DNA of 64,000 bases from assembly GCF_003261175.1 (NCBI RefSeq), contig NZ_QLNP01000064.1, positions 1 through 64,000 on the forward strand, in the 5' to 3' direction. Under the pieces are notes generated by a model, which saw only the letters and a list, made by a program, of their open reading frames with translations, was not told the origin of the DNA and ran no database searches. Below, in pieces: positions 44,457-57,903 of this stretch. Position 1 is the stretch's first letter. Each line of letters starts with the position of its first letter. The position numbers and the translations under genes are program-made. Source of the stretch: Arthrobacter globiformis (lineage in GTDB: Bacteria > Actinomycetota > Actinomycetes > Actinomycetales > Micrococcaceae).

Positions 44457-45857
44457 TTAGACGCCGGCGGACGCCTTGACGGCTTCAGCCGACGCCTGGC
44501 GGCGGTCGAAGATGGTGGCGCCGACCTCCTGCTCGGCCTGGTTATTGATGCCCAGGTCGATGCCTTTGCGTTCCCGGATCACCAGGACCGCGGCCGTTGA
44601 AACGAGGGCCACGATCAGCAGGTAAACGGACACCGAGGCTGTGGTTCCGGTGGCCTGGACCAGGGCGGTGGCGATCATCGGAGCGAAGGCGCCGCCGATG
44701 ATGGCACCGAGTGCGTAGGAGATCGCGACGCCGGAGAACCTGATGGAGGCGGGGAACAGCTCACTGTAGAGGGCTGCCTGCGGGCCGTAGGTCAGGCCGA
44801 GCCCGACCGTGAACAGCGCAAGGCCAAGGAAGAGCGACCAGATGTTTCCGGTGTTCACCAGCCAGAACAGCGGGAACACCGTAAGGATGAGGCAGGCATA
44901 GCCGATGAGGTACGTCTTCTTGCGGCCGATGCTGTCCGCCAGGTAGCCGGAGATCAGCGTGAACAAGAACCACAGGGCGGCGGAGCCGGTTACTGCGAGG
45001 AGAACTTCCGTGCGGTCCATGGCCAGTCCGGCGGGATTGGCGGCATAGCTCAGGATGTAGCCGCCGGTGGTCATGTAGCCTGCGGCGTTGTTGCCCGCGA
45101 AGACGAGTGCCGCGATGATGACCAGCAGCCAGTGCTTCTTAAAGAGTTCGACGATCGGAACGCGGGTCTGCTGCTTCTTCTGCGCGATCTCCTCGAAGAC
45201 CGGGCTTTCCTCCACGCTGCGGCGGACCATGAAGCCGACGACGATCAGGACGAAGCTGAGCAGGAATGGAATGCGCCAGCCCCACTGCACAAAGGCCGCG
45301 CCGGGGGAGACCACGCCGGACATCAGAGCCAGGACGCCGGAGGCCAGCAGCATGCCCAGGGGAACGCCTAGCTGGGGGAAGGCGCCGAACAGGCCACGCT
45401 TGCCGCGGGGTGCGTGCTCGACCGCCATCAGGACGGCACCGCCCCATTCGCCGCCGGCCGAAATGCCCTGCAGGATGCGAAGGAGCAGCAGCAGGATGGG
45501 CGCCACAACACCTGCCGTCTCGAAGGTCGGCAGCACGCCGATGAGGGTGGTGGCTGCCCCCATCATGATCAAGGTGATGACCAGCATGGCGCGGCGGCCC
45601 AGCCGGTCCCCGAAGTGTCCGGCAAGGAAGGCGCCCAGCGGACGGAACAGGAAGCTGAGTCCCACCGAGGCAAAGGAGATGAGGATGCCAATGTCATTGC
45701 CGGCGGGTTCGAAGAACAGTTTCGCGAAGACCAGGCCCGCGGCGTTGGCGTAGATGAAGAAGTCGTACCACTCGACGGTGGTACCGATGATGGTGGCAAA
45801 CGCTACGCGGCGGTTATCCCTTGCCGAGCTGCGCTGCCCGTGCTGGACAGTACTCAA
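44457..45857 (-). CDS. MHS-family MFS permease (metabolite:H+ symporter)
   Basis: 466-residue, 12-helix transporter of the metabolite:H+ symporter family (relatives take up citrate, shikimate, alpha-ketoglutarate). Signature GTTVEWYDFFIYANAAG in helix 1 and GHFGDRLGRRAML in the loop 2-3 motif. TTG 45857 is preferred: GAAGGAA lies 5 nt before it and the family N-terminus begins there; the frame stays open far upstream only as overlap with the next gene. In this operon it probably imports a hydroxyphenylacetate or related acid (inferred). Confidence 0.87.
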   Translation of the reverse strand: MSTVQHGQRSSARDNRRVAFATIIGTTVEWYDFFIYANAAGLVFAKLFFEPAGNDIGILISFASVGLSFLFRPLGAFLAGHFGDRLGRRAMLVITLIMMGAATTLIGVLPTFETAGVVAPILLLLLRILQGISAGGEWGGAVLMAVEHAPRGKRGLFGAFPQLGVPLGMLLASGVLALMSGVVSPGAAFVQWGWRIPFLLSFVLIVVGFMVRRSVEESPVFEEIAQKKQQTRVPIVELFKKHWLLVIIAALVFAGNNAAGYMTTGGYILSYAANPAGLAMDRTEVLLAVTGSAALWFLFTLISGYLADSIGRKKTYLIGYACLILTVFPLFWLVNTGNIWSLFLGLALFTVGLGLTYGPQAALYSELFPASIRFSGVAISYALGAIIGGAFAPMIATALVQATGTTASVSVYLLIVALVSTAAVLVIRERKGIDLGINNQAEQEVGATIFDRRQASAEAVKASAGV

Positions 45858-45867
45858 TGTTTTTCCT

Positions 45868-47388
45868 TCAGTTGGCGTAGGGGTCGGCGATGCCGATGTA
45901 TTGGGTGGTGGTGTATTCGGCGATGCCTTCGGAGCCGCCTTCGCGGCCGAGCCCGGATTGTTTGACGCCGCCGAAGGGTGCGGCGGCGTTGGAGATGACG
46001 CCGGCGTTGAAGCCGACCATGCCGAATTCGATTTGTTCGGCCACCCTGAGGAGCCGGTTGAAATCGCGGCTGTAGAGGTAGGAGGCCAGGCCGTATTCGC
46101 TGGCGTTGGCCAGGCGGATGGCGTCCTCTTCGGTTTTGAAGGTGGTGACGGGGGCGACGGGGCCGAAGATTTCCTGGCGGAGGATTTCGGCGTCGTTGGG
46201 GACGTTGCCCAGCACGGTGGGCTGGTAGAAGTACCCGGCTCCTTCGACGGGGGCGCCGCCGGTGATGGCGGTGGCTCCCGCGTCGACGGCGGCACTCACC
46301 AGGGCGTGCACGTCGTCGCGGGCGCCGGCGTCGATGAGGGGACCGACTTGGGTGGCGGGTTCGGTGCCGCGGCCGGTGGTCAGGGCGCCCATGGCGGCGG
46401 CGAACTTGGCTGTGAACTCTTTGGCGACGGTTTCGTGGGCGAGGAAGCGGTTGGCGGCGGTGCAGGCTTCGCCCATGTTCCGCATCTTGGCGGCCATGGC
46501 CCCTTCGACGGCCTTGTCCAGGTCGGCGTCCTCGAACACGATGAACGGGGCGTTCCCGCCGAGTTCCATGGAGGTGCGCAGCACGTTCTGCGCGGCATCG
46601 GCCATCAGGCGCTTGCCCACCGGTGTGGAGCCGGTGAAGGAGACCTTGCGCAGGCGGGAATCTTTGAGCAGGGGCCCTGAGATGCCGGAGGCGGAAGAGG
46701 ACGGGACCACGTTCAGGACGCCGGCGGGCAGGCCGGCGTCGAGCATGGCCTGCGCGAAGTACTGGGCGGTGAGCGGGGTGAGCTTGGCGGGTTTGAGGAC
46801 CATGGTGCAGCCGGCGGCGATGGCGGGGGCGACCTTGCGGGTGGCCATCGCGAGCGGGAAGTTCCAGGGGGTGATGAGCAGGCACGGGCCCACGGGTTTG
46901 TGCTGGACGAGGATCTTGTTTTTACCCTCGGGGGTGGTGAGGTAGCGGCCGTAGTCGCGGACGGTTTCTTCGGAGAACCAGCGCAGGAACTCGGCCCCGT
47001 AGGTGACCTCGCCGCGGGCCTCGGCCAGCGGCTTGCCCATCTCCAGGGTCATCAGCAGGGCGAAGTCCTCGGCGCGTTCGGTGACCAGGTCGAAGGCGCG
47101 GCGCAGGATCTCGGCGCGTTCCCTGGGTGCGGTGCGGGCCCAGGAGGCCTGGACCGCGTCCGCTGCGTCGAGCGCGGCGACGGCGTCGTCGCTGGTGGCC
47201 GAGGCCAGGGTGGCGAGTACCTCCCCGGTGGCGGGGTCGTGCACATCGAACCTGCCGCCGTCGGAAGCATCCCGCCACTGGCCGTTGATGAGCAGGCCGG
47301 TGGGTACGGACGCGAGAAGCTCGGCCTCACGTTCGGGAGAGACGGAGGCCGGTGAGATGGCAGGGGAGATTACGGGCGAAGTGGTCAT
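45868..47388 (-). CDS. gabD: Succinate-semialdehyde dehydrogenase
   Basis: 506-residue aldehyde dehydrogenase of the GabD type: PWNFPLAM, Glu in MELGGNAP, catalytic Cys in GEACTAANRF. Oxidises succinate semialdehyde, the product of the HpaI aldolase, to succinate, closing the homoprotocatechuate pathway. ATG 47388 has GAGGAG 8 nt upstream. The frame is open to 47463, but that stretch runs through the family-B palindrome. Confidence 0.9.
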   Translation of the reverse strand: MTTSPVISPAISPASVSPEREAELLASVPTGLLINGQWRDASDGGRFDVHDPATGEVLATLASATSDDAVAALDAADAVQASWARTAPRERAEILRRAFDLVTERAEDFALLMTLEMGKPLAEARGEVTYGAEFLRWFSEETVRDYGRYLTTPEGKNKILVQHKPVGPCLLITPWNFPLAMATRKVAPAIAAGCTMVLKPAKLTPLTAQYFAQAMLDAGLPAGVLNVVPSSSASGISGPLLKDSRLRKVSFTGSTPVGKRLMADAAQNVLRTSMELGGNAPFIVFEDADLDKAVEGAMAAKMRNMGEACTAANRFLAHETVAKEFTAKFAAAMGALTTGRGTEPATQVGPLIDAGARDDVHALVSAAVDAGATAITGGAPVEGAGYFYQPTVLGNVPNDAEILRQEIFGPVAPVTTFKTEEDAIRLANASEYGLASYLYSRDFNRLLRVAEQIEFGMVGFNAGVISNAAAPFGGVKQSGLGREGGSEGIAEYTTTQYIGIADPYAN

Positions 47389-47426
47389 GCGGGGGTCTCC
47401 TCGTAAGCGGGAAGGGTCTGAGGGCG

Positions 47427-47487
47427 CAACTGACTCGCACTTGTTGTCGTTTTCAGGCGTCAAACGACAACAACTGCGAGTCAGTTG
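47427..47487. repeat. Family-B long palindrome between gabD and hpaI
   Basis: The arms 47427-47452 and 47462-47487 are reverse complements over 26 bp with one mismatch (start CAACTGACTCGCA) around a 9-nt loop. It lies 39 bp before gabD and 4 bp after the hpaI stop codon. A diverged copy is at 50201-50266. Confidence 0.88.
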
Positions 47488-47490
47488 GGT

Positions 47491-48306
47491 TTAGTAGCTG
47501 GCGGGGGAGCCGCCGCCGGCAGACGTGATGAATTCGGCGGCAAGGGCCTCGGAGCCTCGGGCCAGCAGGGCGACGTCGGCGCCCACCAGGATGAAGGCGG
47601 CGCCGGCGTCGAGATACGCACGGGCGGTGGCGGGGTTGAAGGCGTTGACGCCGGCGGGTTTGCCGGCCGCTTTCGCGGCGGCCAGGCAGTGTTCGACGGC
47701 GGCACGCACCTCGGGGCGTTCCTGCTGTCCCAGCAGCCCCATCGACGCGGCGAGGTCGGAGGGCCCCAAGAAGATGGCGTCCACGCCGTCGACCTCCAGG
47801 ATGTCCTCCACCGCCTCAACCGCCGCCCTCGACTCGATCTGGACCGTGACGCTCACGGTCTCCGACGCGCGGGCGAGGTAGTCCGGGACGCGGTTCCAAC
47901 GGGCGGCGCGGGCCAGCGCGGAGCCGACCCCGCGGACTCCGTGGGGCGGGTAGCGGGTGGCAGCCACCGCGGCCTCCGCCTCGGCCACGGAGTTGACCAT
48001 CGGGACCAGCAGGTTCTGCACGCCCAGGTCCAGGTACTGCTTGATCAGCACCGTGTCGTTCACCGGCGGCCGAACCAGGGTGTGGACCGGGTAGCCGTGG
48101 ATCGCCTGGAGCTGGGACAGGATGGATTCGAGCCCGTTGGGGCTGTGCTCGGCGTCCACCAGGAGCCAGTCCAGGCCGGACCCCGCGCAGAGTTCGGCGA
48201 TCAGCGGGCTGCCGGAGCACACCCACATCCCGGCCAGCGGCCTGCCTGCTTTACCGTTTTGATGGCGGAGCGCATCTCGGAAGGTGTCTTCTACTCGAAG
48301 CGGCAT
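47491..48306 (-). CDS. hpaI: 4-hydroxy-2-oxoheptane-1,7-dioate aldolase
   Basis: Class II pyruvate aldolase of the HpcH/HpaI family (271 residues) that splits 4-hydroxy-2-oxoheptanedioate into pyruvate and succinate semialdehyde. Visible family segments are WLLVDAEHSPN, VTVQIESRAAVE and IFLGPSDLAASMG. ATG 48306 overlaps the hpaH stop by 16 nt, so translation is coupled. The TAA lies 4 nt beyond the family-B palindrome. Confidence 0.93.
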   Translation of the reverse strand: MPLRVEDTFRDALRHQNGKAGRPLAGMWVCSGSPLIAELCAGSGLDWLLVDAEHSPNGLESILSQLQAIHGYPVHTLVRPPVNDTVLIKQYLDLGVQNLLVPMVNSVAEAEAAVAATRYPPHGVRGVGSALARAARWNRVPDYLARASETVSVTVQIESRAAVEAVEDILEVDGVDAIFLGPSDLAASMGLLGQQERPEVRAAVEHCLAAAKAAGKPAGVNAFNPATARAYLDAGAAFILVGADVALLARGSEALAAEFITSAGGGSPASY

Positions 48307-49076
48307 GTGACAGTCCCCAGTGGTCCGTAGTCGGCGTGGACGGTATCGCCCTTGTACACCCAGAGCGGACGGGTGAAGGAGCCGGCCAGAATGATGTCGC
48401 CGGCCTTCATCGAGTCCCCGTGCGCGGCGATCTTGTTGGCCAGCCAGTGCACACCGTTGGCCGGGTGGTCCAGGACGCCTGCTGCCACGCCGGTTTCCTC
48501 CACGGTCTGGTTCTTGTACAGGATGGCCGAGACCCAGCGGAGGTCGACGGCGTCCGGCTTCACCGGGCGGCCGCCCACCACCATGGCACCCATGGCCGCG
48601 TTGTCGGAGATAGTGTCCACGATGGTCCGGCCCTCCATCTCGATCCTGGAATCGAGGATTTCGAGGGCCGGAACCACGTAGTCGGTGGCGTTCAGGACGT
48701 CGAAGATGGTGCAGCCGGGGCCCTTGAGCCCATCCTTCAGGACGAACGCCAGCTCCACTTCCACCCGCGGATGGGTGTAGCGGTCCCACTGCACGGAGCA
48801 GCCGGTTTCCAGCACCATGTCATCGAAGATGGCACCGTAGTCCGGTTCGGTGATGCCGGTGGCGGCCTGCATGGCCTTGGACGTGAGGCCGATTTTGCGC
48901 CCCACCAGGGTCCGTCCGGCGTCCTCGTTGCGGCGCCGCCACAGCTGCTGCACCGCGTAGGAGTCCTCCACCGTCATGTCCGGGTAACGGGCAGTCAGGC
49001 GGGGCACAGGGGTGCGGGTCCGGCCGGCTTCCACCAGCTCGTCCGCAATGGTCTCGATCGTCTTCGCGTCCAGCAT
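48291..49076 (-). CDS. hpaH: 2-oxo-hept-4-ene-1,7-dioate hydratase
   Basis: 261-residue hydratase of the MhpD/HpaH family (FAH-like fold) adding water to 2-oxohept-4-enedioate. Visible segments: GRKIGLTSKAMQ, PRVEVELAFVLK and the C-terminal GSFTRPLWVYKGDTV. It sits between hpaD (3 nt) and hpaI (overlap), in pathway order. Confidence 0.93.
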   Translation of the reverse strand: MLDAKTIETIADELVEAGRTRTPVPRLTARYPDMTVEDSYAVQQLWRRRNEDAGRTLVGRKIGLTSKAMQAATGITEPDYGAIFDDMVLETGCSVQWDRYTHPRVEVELAFVLKDGLKGPGCTIFDVLNATDYVVPALEILDSRIEMEGRTIVDTISDNAAMGAMVVGGRPVKPDAVDLRWVSAILYKNQTVEETGVAAGVLDHPANGVHWLANKIAAHGDSMKAGDIILAGSFTRPLWVYKGDTVHADYGPLGTVTCRFE

Positions 49077-49079
49077 CGT

Positions 49080-50165
49080 TTAGACCTGGGCTCCCAGCTT
49101 GAAGCCCTGGGCTTCAGCCCCTTCGCCTTCGGATTTGCGGGTGTAGGAGAAGCCGTCGGCGCCCACGGTGACGGCCATTTCGGAGGCGTCGGTGCGCTCG
49201 ATGACCGGCTGCGGGTTGCCGTCCAGGTCCAGGACCAGGGAGGCTTCGGTGTACCAGGAGGGAACTACGGGGTTGCCCCACCAGTCGCGGCGCTGGTTGT
49301 CGTGGACGTCCCAGGTGACGGTGGGGTTGTCCGGGTCGCCGGTGTAGTAGTCCTGGGTGTAGATCTCGATGCGGTGGCCGTCCGGGTCCAGGATGTAGAG
49401 GTAGAACGCGTTGGACACGCCGTGCCGGCCGGGTCCGCGTTCGATCCGGTCGCTGATGCGCAGGGCGCCCATCTTGTCGCAGATCTGGATGATGTTGTGC
49501 TTCTCGTGCGTGGCGAACGCGACGTGGTGCATGCGCGGGCCGTTGCCGCCGGTGAGGGCGGTGTCGTGGACTGTCTGCTTGCGGTGCATCCACGCGGCGT
49601 AGGTGACGCCGTCGGAGTCTTTGATGTCCTCGGAGACGCGGAAGCCGAGATCCTCCAGGTAGGCGCGGCCGCGGGGAACGTCCGGGGTGACCTGGTTGAA
49701 GTGGTCCAGGCGCACCAGTTCACCGGCGGAGTAGAGGTCGTAGCGCTGGGTGAGCCGCTCCACGTGCTCGGTCTCGTAGAAGAACTCGTACGGGAAGCCC
49801 AGCGGGTCCTCGACGCGGACGGAGTCGCCGATGCCCTTGGTGAATCCTTCCTTGCGGCGCTCGGTGCGGCAGCCCAGTTCCTTGTAGTAGGCCTCCGCGG
49901 CGTCCACCTCGGCGGGGGACTTCACCCGGTAGGCGAAGGCTGCGACGGCGGCGATCGGGCCCTGGCGGAGCACCAGGTTGTGGTGGATGAACTCCTCCAA
50001 TGAGCGCAGGTAGATGGTGTTTTCATCCTCTTCGGTGACGTGCAGGCCGAGGACGCCGACGTAGAACTCGCGCGACTTGGCGAGATCCGTGACCACGATC
50101 TCCATGTATGCGCAGCGGACGATATCCGGTGCCGGGACGGTGGGGGTGGGAACGAAGTTGGTCAT
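49080..50165 (-). CDS. hpaD: 3,4-dihydroxyphenylacetate 2,3-dioxygenase (MndD-like)
   Basis: Extradiol dioxygenase of the vicinal-oxygen-chelate fold that opens the homoprotocatechuate ring next to the hydroxyls. 361 residues. The three metal ligands fall at the exact positions known for the Arthrobacter and Brevibacterium enzymes: His155 (RLDHFNQ), His214 (RMHHVAF) and Glu267 (HRIEIYT). The A. globiformis enzyme (MndD) uses Mn(II), while the close B. fuscum enzyme uses Fe(II), so the metal here cannot be read from sequence. ATG 50165. Confidence 0.96.
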   Translation of the reverse strand: MTNFVPTPTVPAPDIVRCAYMEIVVTDLAKSREFYVGVLGLHVTEEDENTIYLRSLEEFIHHNLVLRQGPIAAVAAFAYRVKSPAEVDAAEAYYKELGCRTERRKEGFTKGIGDSVRVEDPLGFPYEFFYETEHVERLTQRYDLYSAGELVRLDHFNQVTPDVPRGRAYLEDLGFRVSEDIKDSDGVTYAAWMHRKQTVHDTALTGGNGPRMHHVAFATHEKHNIIQICDKMGALRISDRIERGPGRHGVSNAFYLYILDPDGHRIEIYTQDYYTGDPDNPTVTWDVHDNQRRDWWGNPVVPSWYTEASLVLDLDGNPQPVIERTDASEMAVTVGADGFSYTRKSEGEGAEAQGFKLGAQV

Positions 50166-50266: not shown

Positions 50267-51781
50267 CTAGGCGCCGAACTTGGGGGTGTGAACGGAACCG
50301 AGCGTGATGTGCACGGCCTGCTGGTCGGTGTAGAAATCGATGGAGCGGTAGCCGCCCTCGTGGCCCAGGCCGGAGGCCTTGACGCCGCCGAACGGGGTGC
50401 GCAGGTCGCGGACGTTGTGGCTGTTCAGCCACACCATGCCGGCTTCCACGTTCTGCGAGAAGTTGTGGGCCCGGGTCAGGTTCTGGGTCCAGATGTAGGC
50501 CGCCAGGCCGTACTTGGTGTTGTTGGCCAGGGCGAGGGCCTCGTCGTCGTTCTCAAACGGGGTAATGGCGACGACGGGACCGAAGATCTCCTCCTGGAAG
50601 ATTCGCGCGTCGGGGGAGACGTCGGCGAAGACGGTGGGGGCGATGTAGTTGCCCTCCGGCAGGCCTTCCGGGCGTCCGCCGCCGGCCAGCAGCCGCCCTT
50701 CGGACTTGCCGATCTCCACGTAGGAGGCCACCTTCTCGTAGTGCTCCGGGTGGACCAGGGCACCCACCTGCGTCTTGGGGTCGTGCGGGTCGCCGACGAC
50801 GATGTTCTTGGCGCGGGCGGCGTACTTCTCGCAGAACTCGTCATAGATGGCGCGTTCCACCAGGATGCGGGAACCGGCCGTGCAGCGCTCGCCGTTGAGG
50901 GAGAAGACGCCGAAGAGTGCGGAGTCGATCGCGGCGTCCAGGTCTGCGTCGGCGAACACGACGCAAGGGGACTTGCCGCCGAGCTCCATGGAGAGGCCCT
51001 TGAGGTTGGCGGCGGCGTTGCGGAAGATCGTCTGGCCCGTTGTGGTCTCGCCGGTGAAGGAGATCAGCGGAACGTCCGGGTGCTTGACCAGCGCGTCGCC
51101 GGCTTCCTCACCCAGGCCGTTGACCAGGTTGAAGACGCCGTCCGGCAGGCCGGCTTCCTTGAAGATGGTGGCCCAGAGGGACGCGGACAGCGGGGTGAAT
51201 TCGGCCGGCTTGAGGACCACGGTGTTGCCGGTGGCCAGGGCCGGGGCGAGCTTCCAGGACTCCAGCATGAACGGGGTGTTCCACGGGGTGATGAGCCCGG
51301 CGACGCCGATCGGCTTGCGGTTCACGTAGTTGATCTGCGAGCCGGGGACCTTCATGGCGTCGTCGAACTGGGCCACGATCAGGTCCGCGAAGAAGCGGAA
51401 GTTCTCCGCCGCACGCAGCGCCTGGCCCTTCGCCTGCGTGATCGGCAGGCCGGTATCGAAGGTTTCCAGCTCGGCCAGGCGGCTTTCCTGTGCTTCGACG
51501 GCGTCGGCGATCCGGTTCAGGATGCGGGCGCGCTCGCGGGGCTTCATCTTCGGCCACGGGCCGCTGGTGAACGCTTCGCGGGCTGCGGCGACGGCGAGGT
51601 CGATGTCTTCCTTCTGGCCTGCCGCGGCGGTGGCGTAGTTCTGGTTGGAGACAGGGTCCAGGACGTCGAAGGTCTTTCCGCCCACGGAATCGACGAACCT
51701 GCCGTTGATGAAGTGCTGGATGTGCGTGGGCAGGTTCTCGGGAACGTAGTGCTTTGCTGCTGTTTCTACAGGGGTCGTCAT
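50267..51781 (-). CDS. hpaE: 5-carboxymethyl-2-hydroxymuconate semialdehyde dehydrogenase
   Basis: 504-residue NAD-dependent aldehyde dehydrogenase oxidising the ring-cleavage product of HpaD to 5-carboxymethyl-2-hydroxymuconate. Catalytic Glu in MELGGKSP and Cys in NGERCTAGSR; N-terminal LPTHIQHFINGRFVDS is typical of HpaE. ATG 51781. Upstream of it lies the family-A palindrome and the GntR gene; downstream, a family-B palindrome. Confidence 0.93.
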   Translation of the reverse strand: MTTPVETAAKHYVPENLPTHIQHFINGRFVDSVGGKTFDVLDPVSNQNYATAAAGQKEDIDLAVAAAREAFTSGPWPKMKPRERARILNRIADAVEAQESRLAELETFDTGLPITQAKGQALRAAENFRFFADLIVAQFDDAMKVPGSQINYVNRKPIGVAGLITPWNTPFMLESWKLAPALATGNTVVLKPAEFTPLSASLWATIFKEAGLPDGVFNLVNGLGEEAGDALVKHPDVPLISFTGETTTGQTIFRNAAANLKGLSMELGGKSPCVVFADADLDAAIDSALFGVFSLNGERCTAGSRILVERAIYDEFCEKYAARAKNIVVGDPHDPKTQVGALVHPEHYEKVASYVEIGKSEGRLLAGGGRPEGLPEGNYIAPTVFADVSPDARIFQEEIFGPVVAITPFENDDEALALANNTKYGLAAYIWTQNLTRAHNFSQNVEAGMVWLNSHNVRDLRTPFGGVKASGLGHEGGYRSIDFYTDQQAVHITLGSVHTPKFGA

Positions 51782-51803: not shown

Positions 51804-51870
51804 AGCGACGCGGGGTCAGTTACGGCCCAATTCGGGGCCGTTATTGGGCGCTAAGTGACCCCGCGTTGGT
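51804..51870. repeat. Family-A palindrome (diverged copy) overlapping the gntR 3' end
   Basis: Left arm AGCGACGCGGGGTCAGTTAC (first 20 bases, from 51804) and right arm ending AGTGACCCCGCGTTGGT (51870) pair with several mismatches. The same core is in the perfect copy at 16550-16616. The right arm, read on the minus strand, encodes the last residues and TAA of the GntR regulator. Confidence 0.85.
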
Positions 51871-52551
51871 TTGGGAGAGGTACGCGTCCAGGGTGGCGCT
51901 GCGGTGGAGTCGTGCTGCTTTTTCGATGGTGTCGGCGTCGGCGCCGGATTCAATGAGTCGGAGCAGGTTCTCGTGCTCGTCCACGGACTCGTGGGCCCGG
52001 CCGGGGACAAAGCGGAACGTTGACGACCGCAGTGATGCGAGCCGGTTCCACCCGCGGTGGACGAGGTCCAGGATGTGCGGGTTGGGGCAGTGCTCGAACA
52101 GGACGCTGTGGAAGTCCTGGTTGAGCCGGGTGAAGCGGACCGGGTCGAAGTGCTCCAGGCAATCGCGCATCTCGGCGTTGACGGCGCGGGCCCGGGCAAT
52201 GTCCGCTTCGCCCACCAGCGGCGCGGACAGCGCGGTGGCCGCACCCTCCACGATGCTCAAGGTCTGCATCGTGTAGAGGTACTCGATGGGGTCGATGCCC
52301 GCCACGGTGGCCCCGACGTTACGTTCGAACTTCACCAGGCCTTCGGCCTCGAGACGGCGGATCGCTTCCCGGACCGGGACCACGCTGAAGCCGAGGTCCT
52401 TGGCGATGGCGGCCAGGACCAGCCGGTAGCCGGGCGTGTAGGTGCCCTCCACGATCCGTGCCTTGATGGCCTGGTAGGCCTGTTCTGACTTGCTGCCGGC
52501 GGTGATCTCAGAGACGCTCTCGGCAGCGGGGACGGTTGTCGTTTCAGTCAT
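51841..52551 (-). CDS. GntR-family regulator, FCD (FadR) type
   Basis: 236-residue regulator: N-terminal winged helix-turn-helix (AYQAIKARIVEGTYTPG, VVPVREAIRRLEAEGL) and a C-terminal FCD effector domain with metal/ligand residues (HSVLFEHCPN, HESVDEHENLL). It probably represses the hpa operon in which it lies and responds to an aromatic acid. ATG 52551 overlaps the upstream gene by 8 nt. The last ten residues (TNAGSLSAQ, stop) come from a family-A palindrome. Confidence 0.88.
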   Translation of the reverse strand: MTETTTVPAAESVSEITAGSKSEQAYQAIKARIVEGTYTPGYRLVLAAIAKDLGFSVVPVREAIRRLEAEGLVKFERNVGATVAGIDPIEYLYTMQTLSIVEGAATALSAPLVGEADIARARAVNAEMRDCLEHFDPVRFTRLNQDFHSVLFEHCPNPHILDLVHRGWNRLASLRSSTFRFVPGRAHESVDEHENLLRLIESGADADTIEKAARLHRSATLDAYLSQTNAGSLSAQ

Positions 52552-54040
52552 TGGCTTTGCCTGCTTCCCACTCCTCATACTTTTTGCGCCATTCAGCGTT
52601 GAGCGGGTAGAGTCCGTCCACGCTGTGGCCCTGCTCGACCATTTCGGCGATGAAAACCTCTTCGCGTTCCTGGGCGATCGAGTCGTTGGCTACTTCCTCG
52701 GCGATGGCCGGGGGGATCACCAGGATGCCGTCCGAATCCGCCACGATGATGTCGCCGGGCTGCACGGTGGTGCCGCCGCAGGCGATGGTGATGTCCGTGT
52801 CCCACGGGATGTGGCGCCGGCCCAGCACCGCAGGGTGCGGGTTGGAGTAGTAGGTGGGCAGTTCCATGGCGGCCACGGCGGAGAAGTCACGGACCCCGCC
52901 GTCGGTGATGATGGCGGCGGCGCCGCGGACCTGGGCGCGCAGGGCGAGGATGTCCCCGATGGTCCCGGTGCCCTTCTCGCCGCGGGCCTCCATGACCAGG
53001 ATCTCGCCCTCGTTCACTGAATCGATGGCGCGTTTCTGTGCGTTGAAGCCGCCGCCGTGGGTCTTGAAGAGGTCCTCGCGGTTGGGCACGTAGCGCAGGG
53101 TCCGCGCCAGGCCAACTACCTTGCGGTCCGGGCGGGTGGCGGTGAGTCCGTCGATGCTGACGTTGTTCAGCCCGCGCTTGCGCAGCTGGGAGGACAGGGT
53201 GGCGGTGCAGACGCTCTCCAGCTTCGCCTTCAGCTCTGGGCTCAGGGCGGAGGCGGCAGCCTCTGAAGGCACAGCCGGAAGGCCGGCGGCCTCCCGCGAG
53301 CCGTAGGCCTCTTCGCGCTGTAGGTCATCGGCCTTGGGCTGGGCACCAAAGTCGGCGAGCGCCGTCGTGCCTTCCTTAACTGTGGTGGTGAGGCGGCCGG
53401 AGGTGCGCTGCCCGTCGCTGCCGTTCGAACTAAGAGTGCTGACCTCCACCTCCAGCACGTCGCCGGGCACGGCGACGGAGGCGCCGGCGGGGGTGCCGGT
53501 GAGGATGATGTCGCCCTCCTCGAGGGTGAGCAGCTGAGACAGGTCGGCCACGAGCCGGGCGAACGGGAAGAGCAGGTCCTCGGTGGTGTCGTCCTGGACC
53601 AGGTCGCCGTTGTGCCAGGTGCGGATGCGCAGTTTGGCGGGGTCGACGGCGTCTGCCGGGATCAGTGCCGGGCCCACCGGGGTGAAGCCGTCGCCGCCCT
53701 TGGACCGGAGGTTGGAGCCCTTGTCCGCATAGCGGAGGTCGTACACGCCGAGGTCGTTGCTGGCCGTGACCGCGGCGACGTGGCTCCAGGCGTCTTCGAC
53801 GTCGACGCGGCGGGCTGCCTTGCCGATGATGATGGCGATTTCGCCCTCGTAGCCGAGGAGCTCGCAGCCGGAGGGGCGTTCGACGGCAGCTCCGGTCAGG
53901 GACAGCGAGGACGACGGCTTCAGGAAGTAGGAGGGCTGCGCCGGGGTGCGGCCGCGCTGGGCTGCGCGGCTGGGGTAGTTGATATGCACCGCGATCACCT
54001 TGCGTGCTGCTGCCAGGGTGTCGTCGTTGACCTGCTCCAA
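52544..54040 (-). CDS. Fusion of fumarylacetoacetate-hydrolase domain and RraA-like domain (HpaG-like isomerase/decarboxylase)
   Basis: 498 residues with two domains. Residues about 15-235 are an FAH-family domain: LKPSSSLSLTG, YEGEIAI (Glu65, Glu67), SNDLGVYDLR (Asp96), KGGDGF (Lys114), TGTPAG. Residues about 265-470 are an RraA/HMG-aldolase-like domain with GDILALRAQVRG and TDGGVRD (Arg384, Asp385), the metal and catalytic signature. HpaG normally has two FAH domains giving decarboxylase and isomerase activities. Here the second is replaced by a family that includes oxaloacetate decarboxylases. TTG 54040 follows GAGGAG by 6 nt. It is the first gene of the hpa operon. The activity is inferred. 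Confidence 0.88.
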   Translation of the reverse strand: MEQVNDDTLAAARKVIAVHINYPSRAAQRGRTPAQPSYFLKPSSSLSLTGAAVERPSGCELLGYEGEIAIIIGKAARRVDVEDAWSHVAAVTASNDLGVYDLRYADKGSNLRSKGGDGFTPVGPALIPADAVDPAKLRIRTWHNGDLVQDDTTEDLLFPFARLVADLSQLLTLEEGDIILTGTPAGASVAVPGDVLEVEVSTLSSNGSDGQRTSGRLTTTVKEGTTALADFGAQPKADDLQREEAYGSREAAGLPAVPSEAAASALSPELKAKLESVCTATLSSQLRKRGLNNVSIDGLTATRPDRKVVGLARTLRYVPNREDLFKTHGGGFNAQKRAIDSVNEGEILVMEARGEKGTGTIGDILALRAQVRGAAAIITDGGVRDFSAVAAMELPTYYSNPHPAVLGRRHIPWDTDITIACGGTTVQPGDIIVADSDGILVIPPAIAEEVANDSIAQEREEVFIAEMVEQGHSVDGLYPLNAEWRKKYEEWEAGKAND

Positions 54041-54065: not shown

Positions 54066-54075
54066 TCGTATACGA
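54066..54075. promoter_or_regulatory. Candidate GntR operator before the hpa operon
   Basis: TCGTATACGA is a perfect 10-bp palindrome centred about 30 bp before the TTG start of the fusion gene. FCD-type GntR proteins commonly bind GTATAC-centred palindromes (for example TTGTATACAA), so this is a good site for the regulator encoded in the operon. Confidence 0.55.
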
Positions 54076-54264: not shown

Positions 54265-56217
54265 GTGCAGTTCCACCACCACGGTTACGTTTCCGGTGAC
54301 CCGCGTATCCAGCCGGCCGCCGGCGTCGGCATCAACCGCCCCGAAGAGCTGCCCGACGAGGTCGACGTACTCATCGTGGGCTCCGGCCCTGCGGGCATGC
54401 TCGCAGCGGCCCAGCTCTCCCAGTTCCCGGACATCACCACGCGCATCGTGGAGCGCCGCGGCGGACGCCTGGCGATCGGCCAGGCCGACGGCATCCAGGC
54501 CCGCAGCGTCGAGACCTTCCAGGCCTTCGGCTTCGCCGAGGAGATCACTGCAGAGGCCTACCGGATCACCGAGATGGCGTTCTGGAAGCCGAGCCCCGAG
54601 AACCCGCAGCACATCGTCCGTGCCGCCCGCGCGGTCGACGACGAAATGGGCATCAGCGAATTTCCGCACCTCATCGTCAACCAGGCCCGCGTGCTGGACT
54701 ACTTCGCCCGGGTCATGGCCTATTCCCCGACCCGGATGACCCCCGACTACGGCTACGAGTTCACCAGCCTCCACGTCGCGGATTCGGGGGAGTACCCCGT
54801 CACCGTGACCCTGCTCCACACCGCCGGCGAGCTGGCGGGCCAGGAGCGCGTTGTGCGGGCCAAGTATGTGGTCGGTGCTGACGGTGCCCGCAGCAAGGTC
54901 CGTGAATCGATCGGCTGCACGCTTGCCGGTGACCAGGCCAACCATGCCTGGGGGGTCATGGATGTCCTCGCGTCCACCGATTTCCCGGACATCCGCACCA
55001 AGTGCGCCATCCAGTCCCACGACGGCGGCAGCATCCTGCTGATCCCGCGCGAGGGCGGCCACCTCTTCCGCATGTACGTCGACCTCGGTGTCGTGCCGGA
55101 GAACGACAACGGCGCCATCCGCAAGACCACCATCGAGCAGATCATCGCCCACGCGAACCAGATCCTGCAGCCCTACACCCTCGATGTCCGCAACGTCGCC
55201 TGGCACAGCGTGTACGAGGTGGGCCACCGCCTCACGGACAGGTTCGACGACGTCCTGCCCGCCGAGCGGGATAACCGCACGCCGCGGGTGTTCATTACCG
55301 GCGACGCCTGCCACACGCACAGCGCGAAGGCTGGCCAGGGCATGAACGTGTCCATGCAGGACGGCTTCAACATCGGCTGGAAGCTCGGCCACGTGCTCGA
55401 GGGCCGCAGCCCGGAGTCGCTGCTCGCCACGTATTCCGCGGAGCGCCAGGTGGTTGCGAAGAACCTCATCGACTTCGACAAGGAGTGGTCCACCCTCATG
55501 GCCAAGAAGCCCGAGGAGTTCGAGGACCCCTCGGAGCTCGAGGACTTCTACGTTCGCACCGCGGAATTCCCGGCGGGCTTCATGACCGAATACGCGCCGT
55601 CAATGATCGTGGCAGAGGCCAAGCACCAGGAACTTGCAGCCGGCTTCACGGTGGGCAAGCGCTTCAAGTCCGCGCCAGTGCAGCGCGTCTGCGACACCAA
55701 CCCGCTGCAGCTGGGCCACCAGGCAAAGGCGGACGGGCGCTGGCGGATCTACGTGTTCGCCGACCCCGCCGAGGCTGGCGCGCCGTCGCCGACCACCGAC
55801 CTCGCGCAGTGGCTGGAGACCTCGCCGGAGTCCCCGCTCGCGGCTACGCCGGAAGGCGCCGACGCCGACGCCTGGTTCGACGTGAAGGTCATCTACCAGC
55901 AGGACCACAGGGGCATCGACATCAACGCCGTCCCGTCCGTGTTCAAGCCGGAGGTCGGGCCGTTCAGGCTCACCTACCTCGAGAAGGTCTACGGCACCGA
56001 CCCGAACGCCGACATCTTCGAGCTGCGCGGCCTTGATCGCGGCGGCGTCGTGGTGGTGGTGCGTCCGGACCAGTACGTGGCGAACGTCCTGCCGCTGACC
56101 GCGACGGCGGAGCTCGGGGCCTTCTTTGCGCCGCTGCTGCCGGCCCGCCAGCCGGAGCCGCTTAAGTCGGAGCCGCTGCAGTCCGCCGGCTCGGGGCTCG
56201 TCGCCCACCTGGTGTAA
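54265..56217 (+). CDS. FAD-dependent aromatic hydroxylase (phenol hydroxylase / 3-hydroxybenzoate 4-monooxygenase type)
   Basis: 650-residue class A flavoprotein monooxygenase that adds OH next to a phenolic OH using NAD(P)H and O2. FAD-binding GSGPAGMLAA, the DG motif GADGARSKVRES and the GD motif GDACHTHSAKAGQGMN are clear; a thioredoxin-like C-terminal domain follows, as in MobA and phenol 2-monooxygenase. MobA acts on 3-hydroxybenzoate; here the neighbours argue for 3- or 4-hydroxyphenylacetate, giving homoprotocatechuate (inferred). GTG 54265 has GAGGAAA 6 nt upstream. It is divergent from the hpa operon. Confidence 0.87.
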   Translation: MQFHHHGYVSGDPRIQPAAGVGINRPEELPDEVDVLIVGSGPAGMLAAAQLSQFPDITTRIVERRGGRLAIGQADGIQARSVETFQAFGFAEEITAEAYRITEMAFWKPSPENPQHIVRAARAVDDEMGISEFPHLIVNQARVLDYFARVMAYSPTRMTPDYGYEFTSLHVADSGEYPVTVTLLHTAGELAGQERVVRAKYVVGADGARSKVRESIGCTLAGDQANHAWGVMDVLASTDFPDIRTKCAIQSHDGGSILLIPREGGHLFRMYVDLGVVPENDNGAIRKTTIEQIIAHANQILQPYTLDVRNVAWHSVYEVGHRLTDRFDDVLPAERDNRTPRVFITGDACHTHSAKAGQGMNVSMQDGFNIGWKLGHVLEGRSPESLLATYSAERQVVAKNLIDFDKEWSTLMAKKPEEFEDPSELEDFYVRTAEFPAGFMTEYAPSMIVAEAKHQELAAGFTVGKRFKSAPVQRVCDTNPLQLGHQAKADGRWRIYVFADPAEAGAPSPTTDLAQWLETSPESPLAATPEGADADAWFDVKVIYQQDHRGIDINAVPSVFKPEVGPFRLTYLEKVYGTDPNADIFELRGLDRGGVVVVVRPDQYVANVLPLTATAELGAFFAPLLPARQPEPLKSEPLQSAGSGLVAHLV

Positions 56218-56281: not shown

Positions 56282-56427
56282 TCCGTTGGTCACGACCAGT
56301 GCGCTGAGGCACAACAACTGATCGCTGCCAGACAAGCCCTATCCGACCGGGACTGCCAAGCTGGATTCAGCGGTGCGAGGCCATTGCCGGCACCCCTCCA
56401 ACGCTCATGACCGTTAAGAAGGATCCA

Positions 56428-57903
56428 ATGAGTATTTCAAATTCCGAGTCCCGGACTGCAGAAGCAAATCCACACAAGGAACAGTCCACCGCCCTCCGCG
56501 CGGGCAGCATCGGCGTCCTGGGTATTCTCTTTTTCGTTCTCTCAGCCCAGGCTCCGCTGACCGGCATCGTCGGTGCTGCACCCCTGGCGGCTGCACTCGG
56601 CAATGGCGCCGGGGCACCGGGCGCCTACCTCGTGGTGGGCATAGTCATTGTCATCTTCGCCGTCGGGTTCGTCGCCATGAGCCGGAAGGTGCAGGCCAGC
56701 GGCGCCTTTTATGCCTACATCACCGCCGCCTTCGGGAGAAAAACCGGCACAGGCGCGGCCTGGCTGGCGCTGCTTGCGTACAGCACGGTGCAGGCCGCCA
56801 TGTACGGCCTCTATGGTGCGGCCTTCTCCGGCCTGCTGGGTTCCGCCGGCGTGACCGTTCCCTGGTGGCTTCTGGCCGTTGCCACCATGGCAGGCGTGCA
56901 GGTTCTTGGGTCGATGAACATCGAACTCGGCGCCCGCGTCCTGGCTGTCCTTGTGGGCCTGGAGGTAGCGATTTTGCTGCTGTTCGGTTTCACCGTCCTG
57001 CTGAGGGGCGGAGGCCCCGAAGGCCTCGACATGGCAGCCTCATTCTCCCCGGAAGCGATCGCAAGCGGCGCCCCTGGAGTGGCCATCATGTTCGCCGTCG
57101 CGTCCATGTTCGGCTTCGAGTCGACGGCCATCTACTCCGCCGAGGCCAAGGATCCCCACCGGACGGTGGCCCGGGCAACGTACCTCTCTGTGGGCATCAT
57201 CGCCGTGTTTTTCGCCTTCATCACCTGGATGCTCGTGAGCTTCTACGGGCCCTCGCACGTCATCGCCGCCGCCGGGGCCGCCCTCGAGTCCGGGGACGCC
57301 ACCTCGTTCGTCATTGGCCCGCTGGTTGAGCTGTTCGGCCCCTGGGCCGGCGTAACCGCCGGAATCCTCCTGGTGACGTCCCTGCTGGCAGGCATCATCG
57401 CCTTCCACAACGGCATCAACCGCTACCTCCACTCGCTCGCCCTGCGTGGTTCCCTGCCCGCTGTCCTGGCACGGACCAACAGGCACCGCGCCCCTGCCAC
57501 CGCCGCCTGGGTCCAGACGAGCGTCGCCGTGCTGCTCGTGGCACCGTTCGCGGTGCTGGGAATGGACCCGGTCCTGACGCTCTTCTCGTGGTTCAGCGGG
57601 CTGGCCGTTGCGGCGCTGCTGGTGCTGTACATGCTCTGCTCCCTGGCCGTTGTCGCATTCTTCCGGCGCGAACGGGTGCCGGCGCAACTGTGGCAGACCC
57701 TCATCGCACCGGTGCTCGCATCGTTGCTGCTGGCATGGGTCCTCTACGTGGTGGTCAGCAACTTCACCTCCCTCATCGGCGGCAGCGCCGAAACAGCCCT
57801 CGGGCTGCTGGTTGCCGTCCCCGTGATGTTCGTGGCCGGGTTGCTGGCGGAAATCGTAGTGGAGAAGCGGGCGGGGACCTTAGCGCCGGAGCTCGCCGGG
57901 TAA
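56428..57903 (+). CDS. APC-family amino acid / amine permease
   Basis: 491-residue, 12-helix permease of the amino acid-polyamine-organocation superfamily. The N-terminal GSIGVLGILFFVLSAQAPLTG and ESTAIYSAEAKDP segments are typical. ATG 56428 has AAGGA 5 nt upstream. Among amine oxidase, glutamate dehydrogenase and a D-amino-acid-type PLP enzyme, it may import an amine or amino acid; substrate is not readable from sequence. The 3' end overlaps the convergent AmiS gene by 24 nt. Confidence 0.85.
   Translation: MSISNSESRTAEANPHKEQSTALRAGSIGVLGILFFVLSAQAPLTGIVGAAPLAAALGNGAGAPGAYLVVGIVIVIFAVGFVAMSRKVQASGAFYAYITAAFGRKTGTGAAWLALLAYSTVQAAMYGLYGAAFSGLLGSAGVTVPWWLLAVATMAGVQVLGSMNIELGARVLAVLVGLEVAILLLFGFTVLLRGGGPEGLDMAASFSPEAIASGAPGVAIMFAVASMFGFESTAIYSAEAKDPHRTVARATYLSVGIIAVFFAFITWMLVSFYGPSHVIAAAGAALESGDATSFVIGPLVELFGPWAGVTAGILLVTSLLAGIIAFHNGINRYLHSLALRGSLPAVLARTNRHRAPATAAWVQTSVAVLLVAPFAVLGMDPVLTLFSWFSGLAVAALLVLYMLCSLAVVAFFRRERVPAQLWQTLIAPVLASLLLAWVLYVVVSNFTSLIGGSAETALGLLVAVPVMFVAGLLAEIVVEKRAGTLAPELAG

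Follow-up and report, generated by a model that had tools for sequence, protein, structure and literature searches.

The tyrosine-derived homoprotocatechuate pathway is a textbook meta-cleavage route. In Corynebacterium aurimucosum it is attributed to the cluster hpaGLEDHI, which begins with an hpaG called a 5-oxopent-3-ene-1,2,5-tricarboxylate (OPET) decarboxylase, and hpaF lies outside the cluster in the cited text (PMC2830990). For Acinetobacter, the cited parts of the report describe the C-type protein OPETD as the decarboxylase, with OPETD and HHDDI jointly required and CHMI merely speeding its step (PMC12718150). Growth of Arthrobacter Rue61a on 4-hydroxyphenylacetate and on homoprotocatechuate is described in the cited section, where its authors propose a meta pathway (PMC3534580). 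Here we describe a gene from Arthrobacter globiformis, in a stretch of 64,000 nucleotides (contig NZ_QLNP01000064.1, positions 1 to 64,000; hereafter the window), that opens a minus-strand homoprotocatechuate operon and joins one FAH domain to one RraA-like domain. This fusion is a real, conserved replacement for HpaG from a catalogued family without a function in its name, and it is most likely the actinomycete substitute for HpaG, and probably for HpaF too, in homoprotocatechuate meta-cleavage.

The initial annotation, made from the sequence alone, had read both domains and a TDGGVRD signature in a single open reading frame. Both domains are recovered by Pfam, TDGGVRD occupies residues 379-385, and the NCBIfam family NF009399 (PRK12764) spans residues 3-498 of 498 with 897 bits against a cut-off of 444. 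This full-length match indicates that the FAH and RraA domains belong to a single natural protein rather than being joined by a frame artefact. A frame artefact or misassembly is also ruled out by full-length homologues in 20 of 296 genomes of the class and by a scan that confirmed at least 521 related stretches. The TTG start is preceded by a ribosome-binding-like GAGGAG stretch. The statement that no enzyme of this architecture had been described holds for function and fails for the architecture, which was already catalogued as NF009399. Among the titles and abstracts listed from the open-licence literature we found no paper on the FAH–RraA architecture, and none there contains both RraA and fumarylacetoacetate. 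A homologue on plasmid pTC2 (84% identical) carries the record label "putative Dimethylmenaquinone methyltransferase".

When presence is taken as a score over the curated cut-off, the 20 class genomes with the fusion are the identical 20 with HpaD. One of them (G208) has two fusions and two HpaD; G117 has an additional, weaker HpaD lacking a matching second fusion, and G142 lacks the fusion and scores for HpaD only below the threshold. In a phylum sample of 396 genomes, HpaD was over cut-off in 13 and the fusion in 8 (7 of these already present in the class sample), all 8 with HpaD. The five genomes with HpaD and no fusion (G325, G349, G370, G395, G397) are all outside the class; G603 has the fusion with HpaD on a separate contig, and G634 has a sub-threshold HpaD without it. 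We also compared the best 80 of the at least 521 related stretches (named loci; at least 50% identity, the closest relatives, mostly Arthrobacter and kin). HpaE adjoins the fusion in 80 of 80 and HpaD in 75, and both adjoin it in all 70 loci with at least 6 kb of downstream DNA. Neighbour mapping, a check proposed at the outset, and co-occurrence both tie the fusion to HpaD.

Searches for the enzymes that would make the fusion redundant covered 21 genomes, the 20 with the fusion and G142. Models for two-domain HpaG (NF011750), its N half (TIGR02305) and its C half (TIGR02303) were over cut-off in 0 of 21; as a positive control, TIGR02303 passed its cut-off in L139, a cluster of a different class, and in 2 of 14 control genomes. 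A canonical hpaG elsewhere in the genome had been named as the finding that would overturn replacement, and this candidate is rejected for the window genome (G000), where the best TIGR02303 match reached 184 bits against 276. The fusion itself falls below every HpaG cut-off (NF011750, 127 of 811 bits; TIGR02303, 142 of 276; TIGR02305, 101 of 229). HpaF (PF02962) matched in 1 of the 21 genomes (G208) and in 0 of 7 other-class genomes, a search in which no control matched. In 100 hpa loci (the 80 named loci plus L021-L040), tblastn with E. coli HpaG matched only the fusion gene and with E. coli HpaF matched nothing at 1e-5, and neither protein is among the operon and flanking genes scanned in the window. 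The proposal that the fusion stands in place of HpaG is therefore supported, and since HpaF went undetected the fusion may replace more than HpaG.

Its place in the pathway can be narrowed further. Fifteen of the 20 genomes have HpaH and HpaI alongside the fusion, and in the other five (G019, G183, G208, G233, G291; six clusters) a DapA-like protein takes their place, HpaH not being found at E 1e-60 in four of them. The two DapA-like proteins scanned matched TIGR02313, "HpaI-NOT-DapA", best (350 and 357 bits, cut-off 397), and the protein may be a hydratase-aldolase. The substitution is seen at L025:11571-12512 and L038:8178-9122 and at the same place in L023, L031, L037 and L039, and in 9 of the 80 named loci. 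Fusion, HpaE and HpaD are retained in all five genomes, which suggests that the fusion acts between HpaE and hydration. With HpaG and HpaF undetected, the steps from 5-carboxymethyl-2-hydroxymuconate (CHM) through OPET and 2-hydroxyhepta-2,4-diene-1,7-dioate (HHDD) to 2-oxohept-3-enedioate (OHED) are left to the fusion, unless a tautomerase outside these searches helps. It is thus very probable that the fusion covers the whole segment from CHM to OHED.

Active-site residues are invariant in both halves, and both active sites look intact from sequence. Of the two halves of E. coli HpaG, the decarboxylase (C) half is the nearer to the FAH half (38.6%, E 8e-37), ahead of the isomerase (N) half (30.6%, E 1e-17). 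The metal triad of the FAH half, E65/E67/D96, aligns with that of the C half, whereas the N half lacks the E-x-E...D triad; the three residues are conserved throughout (101 of 101 and 102 of 102 loci), and K114 is a further residue of note. In a tree of 29 FAH rows, the 12 fusion FAH halves formed one clade (99/99) nested in a clade of 22 rows (100/99), whose remaining ten members are single FAHs, each with an S-R lid.

The RraA half matches Streptomyces RraAS2 (PDB 5x15) and the HMG/CHA aldolase 3noj, by sequence and by predicted fold. An aspartate followed after 20 residues by Arg-Asp, a signature of the HMG/CHA aldolase, is present as D363-x20-R384-D385 and is invariant in 102 of 102 loci. 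It aligns with 3noj, and roles have been described for R123/D124 of the Pseudomonas putida enzyme (PMC5065237). The position of K147 of that aldolase is R409 in the fusion, and is R in 79, K in 22 and L in 1 of the 102 loci. Scores against HMG/CHA aldolase models stay below cut-off (NF006731, 86 of 179 bits; TIGR02798, 78 of 305). The structure model of the fusion was built from 31 sequences (mean predicted local distance difference test score, pLDDT, 78.3; predicted template modelling score 0.48), and its relative domain placing was left unused; residues 26-29 and 404-409, close to both active sites by sequence, have pLDDT below 50.

The division of labour that we prefer, at a probability of about one in two, is that the FAH half would be the decarboxylase and the RraA half the isomerase. 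Given that the FAH half stands nearest to the C half of HpaG and has retained the metal triad found there, RraA is more likely to occupy the isomerase slot. The cited finding that OPETD and HHDDI are needed together, with CHMI only accelerating, would fit both the covalent link and the missing HpaF (PMC12718150). In the proposed sequence, HpaD and HpaE would produce CHM, which would tautomerise to OPET spontaneously or within one half of the fusion. The FAH half would hold a divalent metal at E65/E67/D96, grip the 2-oxo-acid end and release CO2 to give the dienol HHDD, with K114 relaying protons and R25/R103 perhaps holding the extra carboxylates. The RraA half would bind a second metal at D385, with R384 steadying the enolate, and turn HHDD into OHED and perhaps also CHM into OPET. 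HpaH and HpaI, or the DapA-like aldolase in other lineages, would then end the pathway. A wider statement, that an RraA-fold isomerase and an FAH decarboxylase from a non-HpaG clade are combined in one protein that replaces HpaF and the two-half HpaG in homoprotocatechuate-degrading actinomycetes, is put forward only tentatively. On that view, a metal-enolate fold otherwise familiar from aldolases and decarboxylases would have been recruited for shifting double bonds.

Several observations weigh against this assignment. In the FAH lid, S24-R25 stands where the HxxE motif has [DE]H, with R25 in 101 of 101 loci and position 28 Q in 90 and E in 11. The HxxE dyad of E. coli HpaG-C is thereby lost, and the lid resembles HpaG-N (NHRSQ against N[YH]xSR). 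In the FAH tree the fusion clade is separated (95/90) from E. coli HpaG as well as from HpaG-C-like FAHs of other classes, the placing of the two E. coli halves being unsure owing to long branches, so the fusion probably did not arise by a half-swap in HpaG. The literature cited here yielded no RraA-fold isomerase in the parts covered; those parts attribute oxaloacetate decarboxylase activity to HMG/CHA aldolase (PMC5065237) and make an RraA-like enzyme a dehydratase/decarboxylase (PMC8563752). The Acinetobacter authors, as cited, regard it as still ambiguous how the two HpaG domains work (PMC12718150), and the cited C. aurimucosum text places the hpaF function at cauri_0890 (PMC2830990). On the side of absence, no control scored over cut-off with NF011750 or TIGR02305, and the window genome gave no HpaF family match in a search that did not include generic 4-OT-type tautomerases.

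The alternative that survives best, although unlikely in our view, is the split first proposed by the initial annotation, in which the RraA half would decarboxylate OPET and the FAH half isomerise, with the overall reaction unchanged. That proposal is supported as regards the replacement of HpaG; decarboxylation by RraA is not established, as it is the FAH half that keeps the HpaG-C metal triad, which the E. coli isomerase half lacks, and that stands closer to the C half. The invariant D-x20-R-D motif, the basic residue at the K147 place, the decarboxylating RraA relatives in the cited papers and the HpaG-N-like lid all speak for it. So does a stand-alone RraA in G395 (57% identical, 342 bits), which lies beside DapA-like and HpaD-like genes with an SR-lid FAH elsewhere, and which may therefore decarboxylate there. 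In the RraA-only cluster, at L138:5165-7891, the RraA gene overlaps at its end with the beginning of the DapA-like gene, the HpaD-like dioxygenase comes next, and the surroundings contain no FAH; in the RraA tree this stand-alone RraA protein joins the fusion halves via a short branch at an unresolved fork, and it may either have lost an FAH half or predate the fusion. Another RraA of PRK08245 type (296 bits), at L129:4750-6446, adjoins a gene that is DapA-like by eye, with no NCBIfam match at E 1e-30, possibly a second such pairing.

Clusters of the opposite kind argue against the reversed split. Four other-class genomes (G325, G349, G370, G397) carry a DapA-HpaE-HpaD cluster that includes an HpaG-C-like FAH (300, 274 and 268 bits for three scored pieces, TIGR02303 cut-off 276) and no close RraA, with matches to the RraA half of at most 84 bits. 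Single SR-lid FAHs of the fusion's own clade also accompany an HpaE-like aldehyde dehydrogenase and a dioxygenase of the LigB type, with no RraA in the vicinity, in 6 of 7 loci (L124-L128, L136, L137), the exception being L127, where the FAH is by itself. This second extradiol operon (L124:5840-9135, L125, L126, L128, L136, L137) has no HpaH or HpaI nearby either, and the two LigB-type dioxygenases scored gave 120 and 127 bits against 316 for TIGR02298. Gene content was considered as an arbiter of the two roles and set aside, since FAH-only (four genomes) and RraA-only (one genome) clusters both exist.

The FAH-only clusters also bear on our preferred split from another side. Neither HpaG-N nor HpaF was matched separately in them, and the pathway may thus do without an isomerase. 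One half, most likely FAH, might then perform both steps, with RraA an assembly or auxiliary module. FAHD1, described in the cited text as tautomerase and decarboxylase in a single site (PMC12176266), offers a precedent. Nevertheless, a pure scaffold would not need D363, R384 and D385, invariant in 102 of 102 loci, and we regard this explanation as distinctly unlikely, below the reversed split.

It is quite improbable that the operon serves another catechol, with some other meta-cleavage acid as the substrate of the fusion. In favour of it, the ten genes scanned include no HpaB-type hydroxylase, the divergent one being phenol-2-monooxygenase-like, and the HpaI-like and SSADH-like genes are under their curated cut-offs. 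Against this, HpaE, HpaD and HpaH all exceed equivalog cut-offs, Arthrobacter Rue61a uses 4-hydroxyphenylacetate and homoprotocatechuate in the cited report (PMC3534580), and the pTC2 cluster lies near genes for copper amine oxidase and phenylacetaldehyde dehydrogenase. Regulation of RNase E or RNase ES by the RraA half is extremely unlikely: RraAS2, an RNase ES inhibitor, is the closest solved structure by sequence and the best RraA-fold match on the model, but the fusion scores 48 bits against a cut-off of 136 for the RNase E regulator RraA model (NF006875) and is strictly linked to one catabolic operon.

The initial annotation had made the fusion the first gene of the operon, and the genes downstream, with HpaE, HpaD and HpaH over cut-off, bear this out (Table 1). 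The divergent hydroxylase is present in 40 of the 80 named loci at 50% identity or more, and may be the upper-pathway enzyme yielding homoprotocatechuate in place of HpaB; HpaB itself was scored in one of the four FAH-only genomes (645 bits), and two more are alike by eye. pTC2 is typed as a conjugative plasmid, and the neighbours of its fusion-bearing hpa cluster (L149, 1-19584), the two amine-related genes named above, suggest an aromatic-amine feed into that cluster. Of the 80 named loci, 78 have at least 120 bp of DNA upstream of the fusion, and in 58 of them the palindrome TCGTATACGA lies within that distance; only 61 copies occur in 1.43 Mb of these loci. The pattern makes it a strong operator candidate for the GntR protein.

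Table 1. Features of the fusion gene and its surroundings, in window coordinates.
Feature	Position	Strand	Basis and remarks
FAH–RraA fusion, 498 aa	52544..54040	minus	TTG start at 54040; family NF009399/PRK12764
FAH domain of fusion, residues 14-206	53423..54001	minus	Pfam PF01557 FAA_hydrolase, E 1.8e-48; conservation
RraA-like domain of fusion, residues 279-441	52718..53206	minus	Pfam PF03737, E 2.6e-30; conservation
GntR/FCD regulator	51841..52578	minus	Pfam and NCBIfam; overlaps 3' end of fusion gene; adjoins fusion in 79/80 named loci
HpaE, 5-carboxymethyl-2-hydroxymuconate semialdehyde dehydrogenase	50267..51781	minus	TIGR02299, 668 bits (cut-off 638)
HpaD, 3,4-dihydroxyphenylacetate 2,3-dioxygenase (glyoxalase-fold type)	49080..50165	minus	TIGR02295, 446 bits (cut-off 321)
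HpaH, hydratase	48291..49076	minus	TIGR02312, 380 bits (cut-off 352)
HpaI-like aldolase	47491..48306	minus	PF03328; TIGR02311, 320 bits, below cut-off 369; ATG at 48306 inferred
Succinate-semialdehyde dehydrogenase-like (SSADH-like)	45868..47463	minus	TIGR01780, 553 bits, below cut-off 646
MFS transporter (metabolite/H+ symporter-like)	44457..45893	minus	TIGR00883, 404 bits, below cut-off 443
Divergent phenol-2-monooxygenase-like FAD hydroxylase	54265..56217	plus	NF006144, 1066 bits
APC-family permease	56407..57903	plus	PF13520
Perfect 10-bp palindrome TCGTATACGA	54066..54075		Candidate GntR/FCD operator; single copy in window

In a large group of actinomycete soil bacteria, the mid-pathway enzymes of this route thus appear to be a different protein, filed under a vague or a menaquinone-methyltransferase label. 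Two unrelated folds are combined in one protein where other bacteria use two related halves. With a name for the fusion, the annotation of many genomes could be put right, and coupled decarboxylation and isomerisation would gain a second, independent solution. The fusion also allows a direct test of the reason for joining the two activities, a question left open by the 2025 Acinetobacter study.

Among known systems, the closest relatives of the RraA half differ from the fusion as whole proteins. The HMG/CHA aldolase-oxaloacetate decarboxylase of P. putida F1 (PDB 3noj) is 21% identical to the RraA half and is not fused to FAH, and Streptomyces RraAS2 (PDB 5x15), titled an RNase ES inhibitor, is a chain of 270 residues that lacks FAH. 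NF009399/PRK12764, "fumarylacetoacetate hydrolase family protein", has the same full-length architecture as the window protein, under a name that gives neither pathway nor function. The C. aurimucosum cluster shares the gene order of the window operon and is likened to it by gene order only, the cited text making no mention of the domain make-up of its hpaG or of RraA (PMC2830990). HpaG/HpcE, from E. coli or split into HpaG1 and HpaG2, resembles the fusion in its operon, its inferred place in the pathway and an FAH half with the metal triad. However, HpaG/HpcE has two FAH-type halves, whereas the fusion pairs an RraA domain with a single FAH that belongs to another clade and carries an SR lid.

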